Below, piece after piece: positions 3,644 to 37,250 of a DNA stretch of 38,118 bases. The notes beneath the pieces are model-generated. The model was not told the DNA's origin, did no database searches, and saw only the letters and a program-made list of their open reading frames with translations. Position numbers and translations under genes: made by a program. How positions within the stretch are numbered: the stretch's first letter is position 1; each line of letters starts with the position of its first letter. Source of the stretch: an uncultured Alphaproteobacteria bacterium (GTDB taxonomy: Bacteria; Pseudomonadota; Alphaproteobacteria; HIMB59; GCA-002718135); the NCBI GenBank assembly GCA_902574475.1, contig CACGNZ010000012.1, positions 1 through 38,118 on the forward strand. Reading direction: 5' to 3'.

Positions 3644-6600
3644 GGAATTTCTAAAGAATAATCTAAGATATTTGACTGACTTAATTCATCAAGTTTTTTA
3701 AAAGATTTGATAGAATATTGGCTAAAATCAAAATTTACTAACTTTTGATCAACTGTAATAAAAAGTTCTATAATATTTTTAATATTATTTTGTTTTTTTT
3801 CAAAAACATTATCTTTTACTTTAGATATATTTTCAATATTTGAATAAATGTTAAATTTATAATGCTTTTGAGAAAAAAAAGTGTCGAGTAAATTTAAATC
3901 TCTTATAATATATCTGACATCAGTATTATTTTTCACAATATCTATATTGAAGATTAATAGATTGCCTTCTTTTAATATTGGTCTATATTTATATAAGTTT
4001 TCACTAAAAATTGTTAATTCAAACTGATAGTTTGTTTCTGACACAGTAATAAATGCATATTTTTTTCCGTCTTTATTTGACCTCTCTTTAATATCTAAAA
4101 TAGCTCCACAAACTTTAATAGATGTTAAATTATTATCCTCTTGGTAGTCTTTAAAATTACTAATATTTTCTAATTGAAAAAATTTTTTAGGATAATGATT
4201 TAATGGATGATCAGAAAAATAAAAACCTATGACTTCCAGCTCATTAGATAAAATTTCTGAATTTTTCCACTTTTCAAAATTTTGATTGAATAAATTTTTG
4301 TCATTAAAGGAAATTTCATTTTCTTCAAAAAGCAAATTTTGATTTATATTTTTATCACCACCATATAATTCTACAAGCTTTGGCACATTATGAAATAATT
4401 TTGATCTATTTGGTTCTATACTATCCAATGCTCCAGCTTGAATAAGTTTTTCAAGTTGTCTTTTGTTTATAACATCTTTGGAAACTCGATTCATAAAATC
4501 GATAACATTTTTAAATTTACCATTTCGCTTTCTCTCTTCTACCATACTTGAAATTGATTTTAATCCTACTCCTTTTATTGCTGAAAGACCAAATCTAATT
4601 GATTTTAAAGAGTCATTTATTTCAATTGAAAATAAAGCTTCTGAATAATTTATATCAGGTTTTGAAAAGATAATATTTAATCTTTCTATTTCTTGTTTAA
4701 GTAAAATAATTTTTTCTGTTCTATCAATTGAATAATTTAATGTTGCTGTAAGAAATTCATGTGGAAAGTTAGCTTTTAAATAAGCAGTTTGATATGATAT
4801 TAAAGCATATGCTGCTGCATGACTTTTATTAAATCCATATCCAGCAAACTTATCAACCAAATCAAAAATTATTGAAGCTTCTTTTTTATCAATATTATTT
4901 TGAACAGCACCTTCAATAAATCTTGATTTTTGCATATCCATTTCTTTTTGGATTTTTTTTCCCATTGCTCTTCTTAGTAAATCTGCTTCACCTAAAGTAT
5001 AATTTGATAAAACTTGTGCAATCTGCATTACTTGTTCTTGATAAACAATAATTCCATAAGTTTCTTTTAATACTTCTTCCAACATAGAATGAAGATATTT
5101 AATTTCTTCACGTCCGTGTTTTCTATTACAAAAAGAAGGAATATTATCCATTGGCCCAGGTCTAAACAAAGCAACTACAGCAATTATTTCTTCAAATCTA
5201 TCAGGTTGCAATTGGCGAAGGACGCTACCCATACCATTACTTTCTAGTTGGAATATTCCAACTGTTTCACCTTTACTTAACTGATCATAGGTTTTTGTAT
5301 CATTAAGCGGTATTTTATTTATTGAAAAATTTTTATTTTCTTTAACTATTAATTTTATGCAATCATCTATAATTGATAAGGTAGTTAAACCAAGAAAATC
5401 AAATTTAATTAAACCTGCCTCTTCAACATACTTCATTGAAAATTGTGTAGCATTTGTATTAGTATTTTGATCTTTGTATAAAGGAACTACTTTAGATAAC
5501 TTTTCATGACCAATTACAACTCCAGCAGCATGGGTTGAAGCGTGTCTGTGAGTTCCTTCAATTTTTAGACTTACATCAATAATATTTGAAATTCTTTCAT
5601 CACTGCTTATCCTTTCTTGCAAACTTCTTTCAGATTTAATAGACTCACTTAAACTAAGTGGATTTGATGGATTAAAAGGTATTAGTTTAGCAAAAGAATC
5701 TACCTCTCCATACGGAACTTCCAAAACTCTACCAATATCTCTTACTGCAGCTCTTGATGCTAGGGTACCAAATGTAATTATATGAGCCACACATTCACTT
5801 CCATATTTATTATTTACGTATGCAATCACTTCATCTCTTCTAGTTTGACAAAAATCTATGTCAAAATCTGGCATTGACACTCTTTCTGGGTTGAGAAATC
5901 GTTCAAATAGTAAATCATACTCCAATGGATCTAAATCAGTTATTCCTAAACACCAAGCTACTAAACTGCCGGCACCTGATCCTCTTCCAGGGCCAACAGG
6001 AATGAATTGCTCTTTAGCCCAATTAACAAAATCTGCTACTATTAAAAAGTATCCTGCAAAACCCATTCTAATTATTATTTCATTTTCATATTTCAATCTA
6101 TCGCTATAAATTTTTATATTCTCAATGTTCTTTTCTTTTATTTTTTTTTCAAGTCCCAGTTCTGAGGATTTTAATAAAAAATTTTCTGCTGATAAATTTA
6201 AATCATTTTTAAATTCAGGTAATTGTGGTTTTGTTGATTCAGGAAAATAATTACAAGATAGAGAAACATTTAGATTATTTTTTATTATTTCAGGAATATC
6301 TTCAAAATTTGAATACATTTCATCATTTGATTTAAAATAAATATTTTCATTTGAAGTATTTCTTTGAGAATTATTAATTGTAGATTTTTGAGCAATACAT
6401 AGTAGTGCATCATGAGCTGAATAATCATCTTTATTAGCATACTTTATATTATTTGAACCAATAAGGGGTATGTCAAATTCTTTTGATAAATTAATAAATT
6501 CTTTTTCAAAAATATCGATATTTTGATCATTTATTCTTTGAATTTCAAAAAGAAAATTTTGCCTAAAAACTTTTTTAAAATTATCTATTAATTTAATGAT

Positions 6601-7041: not shown

Positions 7042-7723
7042 TTGTTAAATGTATTTTTTTATTTTTAAAATAATAAATTTCATCAGCTAATAAAGAATAA
7101 GTTTTGTTATGAGTAACATATACTAAAGTTTTTTTATTTTGTTCGATATAATTTATGAAAAATTTAAAAATGTTGTTAGCAGTATGTTCATCAAGATTTC
7201 CAGTCATCTCATCAGCTAAAATTAAATCTGGATTATTTACTAAAGATCTTGCTATAGCGACTCGTTGTTGCTCTCCACCTGATAATTTTAAAGGTTTATA
7301 ATTAATCCTAGCATCTAAACCAAATTCAAGAAGTAGTTTTTTAGAAATTTCGTAACTTTTATTTTCATTTTTATTTATTAATAATGGGAGCATAACATTC
7401 TCGATCACAGTGAGTTCAGGAATCAGATGAAAAAATTGATGAATAAAACCAATTGATAATCCTCTAATTTTATTCGTTTCATCTTTAGAGCATAAAGAAA
7501 TATCTTTATTCTTAAAATAAAAGTTTCCATCATATTCTGAATCAAGTAATCCAATAATATTAAGAAAAGTTGTTTTGCCTGAACCTGAAGGCCCAATAAT
7601 TGAAACTTTAGTGTTTTGCATTAATTTAAAATTTAGATTTTTAATTATCTCAATTTTTAAATTATTTTCATTAGAATAATGTTTACCTAAATTGGATATC
7701 TCTAATAAATATTTGTTATTCAC
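7034..7723 (-). CDS. lolD: Lipoprotein-releasing ABC transporter ATP-binding subunit LolD
   Basis: ATPase of the Lol system that extracts lipoproteins from the inner membrane for delivery to LolA. The 229-residue protein has Walker A GPSGSGKT (44-51), the ABC signature LSGGEQQR (147-154) and Walker B LILADE (167-172) followed by MTGNLDEHT (the usual proline of ADEPTGNLD is Met). The family's HQFFHLIPELTVIENV segment is also present. The start is a GTG that overlaps the lolC stop by eight bases (GTGAATAA), and its own stop overlaps dnaE by eight, so translation of all three is likely coupled. Confidence 0.93.
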   Translation of the reverse strand: MNNKYLLEISNLGKHYSNENNLKIEIIKNLNFKLMQNTKVSIIGPSGSGKTTFLNIIGLLDSEYDGNFYFKNKDISLCSKDETNKIRGLSIGFIHQFFHLIPELTVIENVMLPLLINKNENKSYEISKKLLLEFGLDARINYKPLKLSGGEQQRVAIARSLVNNPDLILADEMTGNLDEHTANNIFKFFINYIEQNKKTLVYVTHNKTYSLLADEIYYFKNKKIHLTNE

Positions 7724-34075: not shown

Positions 34076-35233
34076 ATGGAAGTTTCAAAAAGAATATTTA
34101 ACTTAGAAACAGAAACAGCATTCTCTATTCTTGCAAAAGCAAATAATTTAGCAGCTAAAGGTAAAGATATTATTAACTTAGGAATAGGACAACCTGATTT
34201 TCCTACGCCAATAAATATTCAGGAAGCTGCTATTAAAGCAATCAAGGATGGATATCACGGTTATACTCCATCAAATGGAATATCTGAATTACGAGAAGGA
34301 ATTTCAGAACTAGTATTCAACAAATACAAAGCTAATATTAAACCAGAAAATGTTTTAATAACACCAGGTGGTAAACCGGTAATTTTTATTTCAGCATTAT
34401 TATTAGGTAGTGAAGAAAGAGAAATAATTTTTCCTGACCCTGGTTTTCCAATTTATAGATCCATGATTAAATATAGTGGTGCAAAAGCTGTTCCACTAAA
34501 GCTTTCAGAAAATGATAACTTCGAAATTAATACTGAACAATTAAAAGAATTAATTTCTGATAAAACAAGTTTGATAATCATAAATAATCCAAATAATCCA
34601 ACGGGATCATACATGAATAAGAAAAAAATTACTGATCTTGTTAATTTATTAGAGCAGTATCCAAAAGTCTCCATTTTAAGTGATGAAATTTATAGTAATA
34701 TTATTTTTAATAATGAACAAATGCCATCATTATTAGAATACGAAAGTATAAGAGATAGATTAATAGTTCTTGAAGGATGGAGCAAAACATATTGCATGAC
34801 TGGATGGAGATTAGGTTGGAGTATATGGCCAGATAATTTAATTGAACATGCGAATAAAATATGTGTAAATTACAATTCCTGCGCTACTTCAATTTCGCAA
34901 TATGCAGGATTAGAAGCAATTAAAGGTTCACAGGAAGAAATTACAAAAATTGTTAGTGAATTTCAAGAAAGAAAAGAATACGTTTTCAATGAATTAAATA
35001 AATTAGATAAAATATCATGTTTTGAACCAGGTGGTGCTTTTTATGCATTTCCTAATATTTCAAAAACTGGATTGAGCGGAAATCAGTTTTCAGAAATAGC
35101 ACTTGAAGAAAAAGGTGTTGCATTAGTTCCAGGTTCAAGTTTTGGTGATAATGCTAGTGAATTTGTTAGAATAAGTTTTGCTAATTCGCTAGAAAACATT
35201 AAAGAAGCAATTAAAAGATTATCTACAATATGA
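34076..35233 (+). CDS. Pyridoxal-phosphate-dependent aminotransferase, class I/II
   Basis: Fold-type I aminotransferase of 385 residues, in the AspC-like/aromatic aminotransferase group. Visible: substrate-side [12 protein letters not shown] (34-45), [13 protein letters not shown] (62-73), NNPNNPTG (170-177, PLP contact Asn), LSDEIYSN (201-208, Asp203 and Tyr206), the Schiff-base Lys237 in [15 protein letters not shown], and the C-terminal FVRISFANS with the carboxylate-binding Arg. Exact substrate cannot be read from sequence; an amino acid:2-oxoglutarate reaction is likely. It overlaps glnB by four bases (ATGA), so it may share nitrogen regulation. First gene after the divergent 52-base gap from tRNA-His. 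Confidence 0.9.
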
Positions 35234-35571
35234 AAAAAATAGAAGCAATCATTAAACCTTTTAAACTTTCTCAAGTAAAAGAAGCTCTCCATGAAATTGG
35301 AATATCTGGAATGACTTTAATTGACGTTAAGGGTTTCGGAAGACAACGGGGATCGACTGGTGGCATGGATGCTAATGATGCATATGATGATGAATTTTTA
35401 GCCAAAATGAAATTAGAGGTAATTGTTGAAGATAATCAAGTAGATCAAGTTATAGAATCAATAAAATCTAGCGCATACTCTGGAAAAATTGGAGATGGTA
35501 AGATTTTTGTATCCAATATAGAGCAAGTAATAAGAATAAGGACTGGTGAAAAAGACAGTGATGCTGTCTAA
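35230..35571 (+). CDS. glnB: PII family nitrogen regulatory protein with divergent T-loop
   Basis: PII trimer proteins bind ATP/ADP and 2-oxoglutarate and report nitrogen status to glutamine synthetase, transporters and kinases. The 113-residue protein keeps [29 protein letters not shown] (33-41), KIGDGKIFV and the C-terminal VIRIRTGE, so nucleotide and 2-oxoglutarate sites look intact (Gln39 present). The T-loop reads [15 protein letters not shown] (42-56) instead of the usual HTELYRGAEYVVDF; it is one residue longer and the uridylylated-Tyr motif YRGAEY is gone, although Tyr52 lies close to the position of Tyr51. Interaction with usual partners may therefore differ. A hairpin overlaps its stop codon. 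Confidence 0.92.
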
Positions 35572-35590
35572 TTTTTCTTTACTTTTTTTT
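35553..35590 (+). terminator. Likely intrinsic terminator overlapping the glnB stop
   Basis: AGACAG (35553-35558) and CTGTCT (35564-35569) form a six-base-pair stem with a five-base loop. They encode the last codons of glnB. A run of five T follows (35572-35576) and a second run of eight T at 35583-35590. This probably ends most aminotransferase-glnB transcripts, so glnA would depend mainly on its own promoter. The stem is short, so some read-through is possible. Confidence 0.5.
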
Positions 35591-35612: not shown

Positions 35613-35662
35613 ATCGTTCAACTCTTTTAGAGTCGGAAGTAGGCATTGTGCCGAAGGAACGC
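35613..35662 (+). ncRNA. Glutamine riboswitch aptamer, copy 1 (glnA RNA motif)
   Basis: Matches the conserved core of the glnA-motif glutamine aptamer: AUCGUUCA (35613-35620), a small hairpin (ACUC/GAGU region 35621-35633), the core CGGAAGUAGG (35634-35643), a GGC/GCC hairpin (35642-35652) and CGAAGGAACGC (35652-35662). P1 is CGUUC (35615-35619) with GAACG (35657-35661). It sits 158 bases before the glnA start and 16 bases from a second copy. The family binds L-glutamine and typically lowers glnA expression. Confidence 0.88.
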
Positions 35663-35677
35663 ATGCAAAAGTTATAA

Positions 35678-35733
35678 ATCGTTCAACCTATTTTTTTATA
35701 GGTCGGAAGTAAGCCCAAAGCTGAAGGAACGCG
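35678..35733 (+). ncRNA. Glutamine riboswitch aptamer, copy 2 (glnA RNA motif)
   Basis: Second tandem copy with the same conserved blocks: AUCGUUCA (35678-35685), hairpin ACCUAU/AUAGGU (35686-35703), core CGGAAGUAAGC (35704-35714), hairpin AGC/GCU, and GAAGGAACGC (35723-35732). P1 CGUUC (35680-35684) pairs with GAACG (35727-35731). The hairpin stems differ in sequence from copy 1 but keep pairing, which is covariation evidence for the structure inside one locus. Confidence 0.88.
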
Positions 35734-35772
35734 CATCAAAAGCAGATTTCATAACTAGAGCATGATTTAACC

Positions 35773-35799
35773 GGGTAACGCTGGATAGCATACCCTTTT
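35773..35799 (+). promoter_or_regulatory. Hairpin with short T-run between riboswitch and glnA (candidate expression platform)
   Basis: GGGTA (35773-35777) pairs with TACCC (35791-35795), and inner GCT (35780-35782) with AGC (35787-35789); four T follow (35796-35799). It lies between the second aptamer and the AAGGAG Shine-Dalgarno at 35808-35813. It could be a weak terminator or a translation-control hairpin. How glutamine binding would change it cannot be told by eye. Confidence 0.45.
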
Positions 35800-35819
35800 G
35801 TTGAAGTAAGGAGATAGAT

Positions 35820-37250
35820 ATGAAATTAAAAAGCTCGACTCCAAAAGATTTAATGTCTGAAATTAAAGATATGGACATTAAGATGGTTGATATGCGCTTT
35901 ACTGATATACCAGGAACAACTCAACATTTTACAATACCAATTAAATTTTTAGACGAAGATATATTTTCTGACGGACTTGGTTTTGATGGATCTTCAGTAA
36001 GAGGTTTCCAAGAAATTCAAGACAGTGATATGATTGTTTTGCCAGATGCAACAACTGCATACATTGATCCTTTTTTTTCAGAAAAAACTTTAGCATTACA
36101 TTGTAATATTAAAGATCCTGTAACTTTGGTTGATTATAGTCGTGACCCAAGAAATATTGCTAAAAAAGCTGAAGCCTATTTGAAATCATCTGGTATTGGC
36201 GATACAGCATTTTTTGGTCCAGAAGCAGAATTTTTTGTCTTTAATAATGTGCAGTTTGATTCTGGATCAAACTATGCATTTCATGAAGTTGATTCTGTTG
36301 AAGGTACTTGGAATAGTGGTGCGGATGAAAATCCTAATCTAGGTCATAAACCTAGACATAAGGAAGGATATTTTCCTTTACCTCCAGTTGATACACTTCA
36401 GGATGTTAGAACTGAAATGGTAATGACAATGCAAGATATTGGTCTAACTGTTGAGGCGCATCACCATGAAGTTGCAACAGGTGGACAATGTGAAATTGAT
36501 TTAGAATTTTCGCCACTCTTGAAGATGGCTGATGATATGATGAAATATAAGTACGTTGTTAAAAATGTTGCTAGACAACATGGAATGACAGCTACATTTA
36601 TGCCTAAACCTTTATTCGAAGATAATGGTTCAGGTATGCACGTTCATCAAAGTGTTTGGAAAGACGGTGACACATTAATGTATAAAGAAGGCAACTATGC
36701 TAACCTAAGTGATTTAGCTTTAAATTATATTGGCGGTATACTTAAACATGCACCTGCTCTTTTAGCTTTTTGTGCTCCTACTACTAATTCTTATAAAAGA
36801 TTGGTCCCAGGCTTCGAAGCTCCGGTGAACATTGTTTACTCTCAAAGAAATAGAACTGCATCTGTTAGAATTCCTGCTTATTCTCAAAGCCCTAAAGCAA
36901 AAAGAATGGAATTTAGATGTCCAGATCCAAGTGCAAATCCATACTTAGCATTCTCAGCAATGTTAATGGCAGGATTAGATGGAATTAAAAATAAAATTAA
37001 TCCTGGTGATCCAACAGATATAAATCTCTATGCTGCTAGCGATGAAGTTTTGTCTAAAATTCAATCTACGCCTGGATCTTTAGCTGAATCTCTTGAAGCT
37101 CTTGAGAAAGATCATGCATTTTTATTAGAGGGTGATGTATTCACCAAAGATGTAATTGAAACTTATATTAGCTATAAAAAAGAGAGTGAGGTCGACCCTA
37201 TTAATATTAGACCTCATCCACACGAGTTTAAATTATACTACGACGTGTAG
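35820..37250 (+). CDS. glnA: Glutamine synthetase type I
   Basis: ATP-dependent ligation of ammonia to glutamate. 476 residues (E. coli 469). Visible: [11 protein letters not shown] (27-37), [10 protein letters not shown], the metal/glutamate site [34 protein letters not shown], and the C-terminal [10 protein letters not shown] and [17 protein letters not shown] segments. The adenylylation Tyr is present (Tyr404, codon 37029-37031), but its neighbourhood is NLYAASDEV, not the usual NLYDLPPEE. The ATG has an AAGGAG at 35808-35813. The leader carries tandem glutamine aptamers and I see no sigma-54 promoter. A strong terminator follows. Confidence 0.97.

Follow-up and report, generated by a model that had tools for sequence, protein, structure and literature searches.

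The leader of glnA in an AT-rich, streamlined marine alphaproteobacterium contains two glutamine-I riboswitch aptamers (RF01739) in tandem, and on balance we favor the view that this tandem riboswitch controls the translation of glnA and that, in a bacterial family lacking GlnD and GlnE, glutamine feedback has passed to it. The window analyzed here is the whole 38,118-nucleotide stretch of DNA (contig CACGNZ010000012.1 of assembly GCA_902574475.1), and both aptamers are housed in its 248-nt gap between glnB and glnA. By model score this RNA is a glutamine-I tandem pair, for which glutamine would be the ligand; both copies match the RF01739 model over its full length (1-53) in a cmscan search, in which the gathering score is 35 bits. 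The features of this region, all on the forward (+) strand, are as follows.

35230 to 35571, +: glnB, encoding PII (PF00543), with a T-loop one residue longer and the ELYRGAEY motif absent
35553 to 35569, +: terminator-like stem overlapping the glnB stop codon and followed by AATTTTTCTT, the whole spanning about 35553-35579 (one found against a shuffle mean of 0.2)
35577 to 35582, +: CTTTAC, a candidate −35 box, invariant in the leader alignment
35613 to 35665, +: glutamine-I aptamer 1 (RF01739, 64.3 bits, E 3.6e-12), with P1 at 35615-35619 / 35657-35661
35662, +: the C directly after P1 of aptamer 1, the 'linchpin' position
35662 to 35679, +: linker between the aptamers, one strand of the predicted helix P0 (CAUGC at 35662-35666, AGUUAU at 35670-35675)
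35678 to 35735, +: glutamine-I aptamer 2 (RF01739, 64.2 bits, E 3.8e-12), with P1 at 35680-35684 / 35727-35731
35747 to 35765, +: nearly invariant element UUUCAUAACUAGAGCAUGA, predicted to pair with the linker (P0) or, through its UUUCAUA, with the start-codon region
35767 to 35806, +: hairpin of variable sequence between the element and the Shine-Dalgarno sequence, with an inner stem at 35773-35777 / 35791-35795
35810 to 35813, +: Shine-Dalgarno sequence GGAG, read from the sequence
35815 to 35826, +: start-codon region UAG-AU-AUGAAAU, the predicted target of the element
35820 to 37250, +: glnA, type I glutamine synthetase (TIGR00653, 666.7 bits), with the adenylylation loop NLYAASDE instead of NLYDLPPE

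The earlier note on this DNA had called tandem glutamine-I aptamers in the glnA leader and suggested a covariance-model search, which bears out the call for both copies, far over the gathering score, and also returned matches in related genomes. The conserved blocks, P1 and two hairpins described for each copy are all present, and the copies indeed differ in the sequence of P2 and P3 while keeping their pairing. The spacing of 16 bases given there was close: the model ends are separated by 12 nt, and the two P1 helices by 18 nt (35662-35679). The contig is also alphaproteobacterial as proposed, with nuo, birA-coaX-rnj and tig-clpP-clpX-lon gene orders in the list of open reading frames (names assigned by eye; glnA and glnB by profile). 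The glutamine-II model (RF01704, Downstream-peptide) had no match in the window at its gathering threshold. Across 33 leaders the core columns, including CGGAAGUA and GAAGGAACG, are invariant, and RNAalifold recovered compensatory changes on both sides in 14 of 33 predicted pairs, all of them in P2 or P3; P1 of aptamer 2, the letters of which are invariant, was not drawn in this analysis. A score above the cut-off, a core of three helices in which P2 and P3 covary, and a nitrogen-metabolism gene downstream together place the RNA in the RF01739 class.

At the upstream end of the leader, the sequence of the terminator-like stem is highly conserved among relatives in the glnA leader alignment. 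This stem suggests that transcription of glnB and glnA is separated at the end of glnB and that the glnA leader has a promoter of its own, to which CTTTAC may belong; a promoter consensus scan did not call this hexamer as a promoter. A TATAAT over the start of aptamer 1, which as a promoter would cut off the aptamer, was dropped as a candidate because it is unconserved in the leader alignment.

Six RF01739 matches were found in the genome of the window (84% complete), namely the glnA pair and two further pairs that each precede an amt gene. Matches occur in 60 of 61 genomes of the genus (its own included) versus none of 40 sister-family genomes, and across the whole order (162 genomes) in 106 of 110 from the window's family versus 0 of 52 from the sister family, a split in which 36 match-less, unlisted genomes are counted as sister-family (the list runs by kinship, with one genus outside the family). 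A class-wide draw of 385 genomes gave six with RF01739, two in the window's genus and four in a family referred to here as f10. At the level of loci, 70 of 71 related glnA genes (L038-L109 minus L107, an outgroup) are preceded by the tandem pair, 69 by block scan and one (L090) by cmscan, which detected two aptamers where the block scan detected one; the sole locus without the pair, L047, has just 111 bases upstream of glnA on hand. Because 70 of these 71 loci carry two aptamers, the pair is not a product of chance. None of nine outgroup glnA loci (L107 and L110-L117) has aptamers by block scan, and four of them were also blank by cmscan; in one sister-family genome (G061) the glnB-glnA spacing is 44 nt and holds no RF01739 match. 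Most of the relatives that have names are genomes obtained from uncultured organisms by single-cell or metagenome sequencing; one is AG-337-I02, which we also take to be the name of the genus, with HIMB59 presumably that of the order. The glutamine-I class reaches beyond cyanobacteria and unassigned metagenomes.

Tandem leaders in the genus and family precede four kinds of gene, identified by tblastn of the downstream gene: glnA (88 rows), a circularly permuted ATP-grasp gene (PF14403; 28 rows), amt1 (23) and amt2 (22), where rows are redundant and one locus (L166) has no gene assignment. Eight rows, likewise redundant, have a single aptamer, among them a contig-end artefact (L024). In the window's own genome, RF01739 precedes just glnA, amt1 and amt2, and the amt genes behind its two further pairs are of the 'marine subtype' (TIGR03644). 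Single aptamers precede a third amt gene and, in f10, the same kind of ATP-grasp gene; since this kind of gene is found in the regulons of both f10 and the window's genus, the ATP-grasp enzyme may have a role in glutamine metabolism.

Several of these leaders differ in their details. The third amt gene, at L007, L159 and L160, is divergent and has a single glutamine-I aptamer in a different leader with no element. In f10 (L119-L122, about 1501-1600) the single aptamer stands directly before the ATP-grasp gene, and CUCUUUC/GAAAGAG right after the aptamer could pair across the Shine-Dalgarno sequence. By eye, L118 (1690-1750) and similar leaders have an open reading frame of ~20 codons between the element and the ATP-grasp start; its stop overlaps or abuts that start (TGATG), which would make translational coupling possible, and in one subgroup its own start looks complementary to the ATP-grasp element. 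The amt1 and amt2 tandem leaders of the window's genome (L037, about 5345-5498 and 7385-7538) are identical, the proteins being 66.6% identical, and gene conversion between the two leaders is possible in this genome; over 11 loci, median identity of amt leaders was 0.922 within and 0.916 between genomes, hardly any excess that would indicate concerted evolution. Between these two genes lies an open reading frame of 124 aa (L037 6941-7315) with no Pfam or NCBIfam match.

The proteobacterial GlnD-PII-GlnE/NtrBC cascade adjusts glnA and ammonium uptake to glutamine. Among the genomes compared here, RNA glutamine sensing stands where GlnD and GlnE were lost: GlnD was found in none of 62 genus and none of 110 family genomes and in 42 of 52 sister-family and 3 of 4 f10 genomes, and GlnE in none of the 62 genus and 4 f10 genomes and in 13 of 14 sister-family genomes. 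As most of these genomes are incomplete, the absence of GlnD and GlnE rests on numbers. PII was present in all 24 genomes tested; all 71 family rows lack ELYRGAEY in its T-loop, 70 of them with a loop one residue longer, and the motif is kept in the three outgroup rows (74 rows in all, some repeating one genome, with the third outgroup row taken as L107). The adenylylation loop of glutamine synthetase is altered in 74 of 74 family rows with its tyrosine retained (two of these rows, L302 and L102, being one contig), and all 11 outgroup rows, which represent 10 loci, keep YDLPP.

The earlier note had supposed that RNA replaced or supplemented NtrBC control of glnA. The idea of a replacement stood insofar as the protein sensing chain changes with the riboswitch (GlnD, GlnE, and the target loops of PII and glutamine synthetase); the reference to NtrBC did not, since NtrC and sigma54 are also missing in the riboswitch-free sister family. 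Over the cut-off, NtrC was found in none of 101 genomes (98 have weaker matches), and sigma54 likewise in none of 101, in searches that covered both families and took in 40 sister-family genomes, none with a glutamine riboswitch. Because both are missing from both families, the missing NtrC and sigma54 fail to explain the riboswitch, which goes with the absence of GlnD and GlnE and not with that of NtrBC. The sensor swap is not strict, since riboswitch and GlnD are both missing from one genome of the same family but another genus, the 93%-complete G529, which may represent an intermediate or a secondary loss. Three further family genomes are without RF01739 matches. By eye, one locus (L133 1480-4219) has an NtrY-like kinase and an NtrX-like regulator beside trkA, and the AAA domain of the latter seems degenerate, in a lineage without sigma54.

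The two aptamers do not look like independent riboswitches, and the linker between them appears to share in one expression platform. The element after aptamer 2 is nearly invariant when 71 glnA leaders, the window's and those of 70 loci, are aligned, and it is present in 102 of 102 unique tandem leaders versus 0 of 7 single-aptamer leaders. The linker, which measures 16-18 nt from P1 to P1 in all 102, is complementary to this element through CAUGC/GCAUG and AGUUAU/AUAACU (the element strand reads AUAGCU before amt and ATP-grasp genes), forming the putative helix P0. At most 2 of 200 shuffles gave as good a duplex in 124 of 136 unique tandem leaders, a count that also separates aptamer differences and requires an assigned gene and hence differs from 102, and median z values were -3.5 to -4.3 in the four gene classes. 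The outer five pairs of P0 are kept in every one of the 102 unique tandem leaders, the inner six in 101, 102, 102, 102, 98 and 97 of them; between gene classes, U-A and U-G exchange and the loop size varies (3/3, 2/2, 1/2). RNAalifold, run on the 33 leaders, returned the outer segment unprompted. The inner segment was not drawn in this alignment, which misplaces the linker between gene classes, and GGAA of aptamer 2 was paired with UUYC of the element instead; this modeled alternative could also hold the element.

A different arrangement, in which the copies are two complete, independent riboswitches that act pseudo-cooperatively through expression platforms of their own, has precedent in the 157 doublets and 4 triplets filed in this way in the relevant part of a 2022 review (PMC9481103). 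We regard it as quite improbable for these leaders: the 16-18 nt between P1 helices are too short for a terminator hairpin in all 102 unique tandem leaders, none of which has a platform of its own after each aptamer, and the linker is complementary to an element that the single-aptamer leaders lack. By anatomy alone, the leaders correspond to the dual-aptamer, single-platform (glycine) type, with the sole platform candidate after aptamer 2. It is plausible that tandem copies give a steeper response, as the earlier note had suggested, and the anatomy would place that response in one shared platform.

In five leaders and in a locus from another genus (L301), the linker is altered and AAC is inserted ahead of the element. 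These linkers pair with their own element at a similar energy (-11.0 to -12.3 kcal/mol) through different pairs and pair with the common element as well or better, which argues for persistence of P0 and not for compensation. Covariation in P0 is nearly absent, so strong is its conservation. One may postulate that the element is conserved for another partner, either a protein that binds RNA or some unknown RNA, and that its complementarity to the linker is incidental; the near invariance of the element does go beyond what pairing alone needs, but all four gene classes, which differ in loop size, and the changed-linker lineages maintain P0 complementarity, and we consider this explanation improbable.

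Upstream of glnA, UUUCAUA of the element is complementary to UAUGAAA at the start codon, and we predict that the leader works as a shared-platform translational OFF switch, a prediction in which ligand, direction and joint action of the aptamers are conjectural and for which support outside glnA is weak. At low glutamine, the linker would hold the element in P0, below P1 of aptamer 1 and enclosing aptamer 2, and the glnA start would be open. On glutamine binding, the C that follows P1 of aptamer 1 would join a new pair at the foot of that helix, and P1 of aptamer 2 would be stabilized, so that P0 would lose its grip; the freed element would then pair with UAUGAAA, and translation would stop. 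Glutamine binding is described as bringing in G23, which then pairs with C60 at the lower end of P1 (PMC11477058), and from a crystal sequence (PMC5393176) we take C60 as the base after P1. As C60 would be the first base of P0 in these leaders, glutamine should loosen P0 and close the start. The fullest form of this proposal, in which an inverted OFF logic with a linker anti-sequestor that is freed only when both aptamers bind replaced the whole chain (GlnD, GlnE, PII uridylylation and glutamine synthetase adenylylation) as the glutamine sensor of the family, is one that we put forward tentatively, as a serious possibility rather than the probable state of affairs.

Folding calculations give a mixed picture of this mechanism. 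With aptamers enforced in 73 unique glnA leaders, median P0 occupancy was 0.89 and start-codon openness 0.61. Blocking the outer P0 strand lowered median openness from 0.61 to 0.00 at a cost of 1.2 kcal/mol, and the start closed by >0.1 in 56 of the 73 leaders; the Shine-Dalgarno sequence opened by >0.1 in 46 of 73 while the AUG closed. These models suggest that the two states of glnA are nearly equal in energy, the balance that a switch would need. The same block closed the start in 1 of 17 amt1, 9 of 19 amt2 and 1 of 27 ATP-grasp leaders. Start sequestration in glnA is moderately over chance (z -2.1; 55 of 73 leaders at 10/200 or better) and is weak elsewhere (z -0.4 for amt1, -1.3 for amt2 and -1.0 for the ATP-grasp gene). 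The glnA element pairs with its own start at -7.8, the amt2 start at -7.0 and the amt1 start at -3.1, and for amt elements the glnA start (-6.3) is about as good a partner as their own starts (-6.4 and -7.1); because amt elements pair equally well with the glnA start, and the glnA element nearly so with that of amt2, co-adaptation of element and start is not established. In ATP-grasp leaders, the element does not pair with the gene's annotated start (-1.7 kcal/mol).

The direction of control is where an alternative deserves the most attention. Folded without constraints, glnA leaders adopt the sequestered state, and median start openness rises from 0.05 to 0.61 once the aptamers are enforced (one leader, L080, is sequestered with or without enforced aptamers); taken alone, this predicts that glutamine turns glnA ON as in cyanobacteria, with the same riboswitch and the same P0, ligand-folded aptamers favoring P0 and thereby an open start. 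Activation is also what the portion of a 2018 review on cyanobacterial type 1 and type 2 switches describes (PMC6316151), and a stem starting from the same C is found in 81 of 113 viral leaders, touching a Shine-Dalgarno-like core in 75 of the 81, among the matches listed. This viral excess is moderate, however, as stems starting 5-20 nt further on occur in 47-69 of 113 leaders among the matches listed. The folding programs omit ligand-bound tertiary pairs, the same C sits in the anti-sequestor P0 in the leaders studied here, where its capture should close the start, and activation of glnA and ammonium uptake by glutamine would be the reverse of feedback. We consider an ON switch rather unlikely and retain the OFF switch as the preferred reading; the same ligand event may have opposite signs in viral leaders (ON) and in these leaders (OFF).

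A further possibility concerns the hairpin after the element, which could act as an intrinsic terminator in transcription attenuation. A hairpin of at least 6 pairs is predicted between element and Shine-Dalgarno sequence in all 64 unique glnA and amt segments, and in the window the inner stem is followed by UUUUG, although without a full U-run. Terminator-like sequences were recognized in 5 of 65 unique segments (3 of 39 glnA, 1 of 8 amt1, 1 of 18 amt2); the other 60, the window's included, are not terminator-like, and a terminator scan found none at the window hairpin, which makes attenuation very improbable.

Much of the background had been described. The relevant parts of earlier publications (PMC9481103, PMC2864571, PMC6316151, PMC9004378) cover the aptamer class, its occurrence as tandem copies and, in marine sequence, its association with PII, GS, GOGAT and amt, and the pertinent text of PMC9004378 reports the class from phages that infect alphaproteobacteria and OM43, with Pelagibacter phage Mosig and methylophage Melnitz as examples. 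The passages of the 2018 review that treat the class state that glutamine riboswitches are limited to cyanobacteria and that those linked to glnA and amt seem limited to uncultured environmental strains (PMC6316151). No report of glutamine riboswitches in chromosomes of the window's family was found among the openly licensed papers listed, and the word glutamine is absent from the main text of a paper on AEGEAN-169/HIMB59 (PMC10308909). Within the reach of these searches, three things are new: the family of hosts with its regulon, the finding that GlnD is distributed reciprocally, and the platform of linker and element. Riboswitches linked to glnA and amt thereby gain a chromosomal home and a regulon, and the sister families, the first having GlnD but not the riboswitch and the second the reverse, amount to a natural experiment in the exchange of a protein for an RNA metabolite sensor. 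The linker-element anatomy suggests, in a concrete form open to testing, a way for tandem glutamine aptamers to share one platform with the sign reversed relative to cyanobacteria.

Comparison with known systems places the leader among several relatives. Our scan of viral contigs gave at least 120 loci with glutamine-I-like cores in 117 groups (three loci are without a full core, and one, L192, looks like a chance match). The IMG/VR phage riboswitches share the aptamer, and some are tandem (11 of 117 groups are doublets, among the matches listed); unlike the window leaders, their linkers are 6-11 nt and they have no element motif among the matches listed, the motif being found in none of the viral leaders scanned (at least 120 loci), and in the examples inspected the Shine-Dalgarno sequence follows closely after the last aptamer. 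The GlnD-PII-GlnE/NtrBC cascade does the same job with protein sensors, whereas in the window's family GlnD, GlnE, NtrC over the cut-off and sigma54 were not found, and the PII and glutamine synthetase loops are altered. Cyanobacterial and marine-metagenome glutamine-I riboswitches have the same aptamer core and P1-P3, are associated with nitrogen-assimilation genes and occasionally occur in tandem; unlike these, the window's switch belongs to a family of alphaproteobacteria, precedes glnA and amt themselves, coincides with the absence of GlnD and GlnE, and is predicted to be an OFF switch with a shared platform and a linker helix. The tandem glycine riboswitch, as outlined in part of PMC9481103, likewise combines two homologous aptamers for one ligand with a single platform; the ligand and the fold are different, and in the window the linker itself is the predicted anti-sequestor strand.
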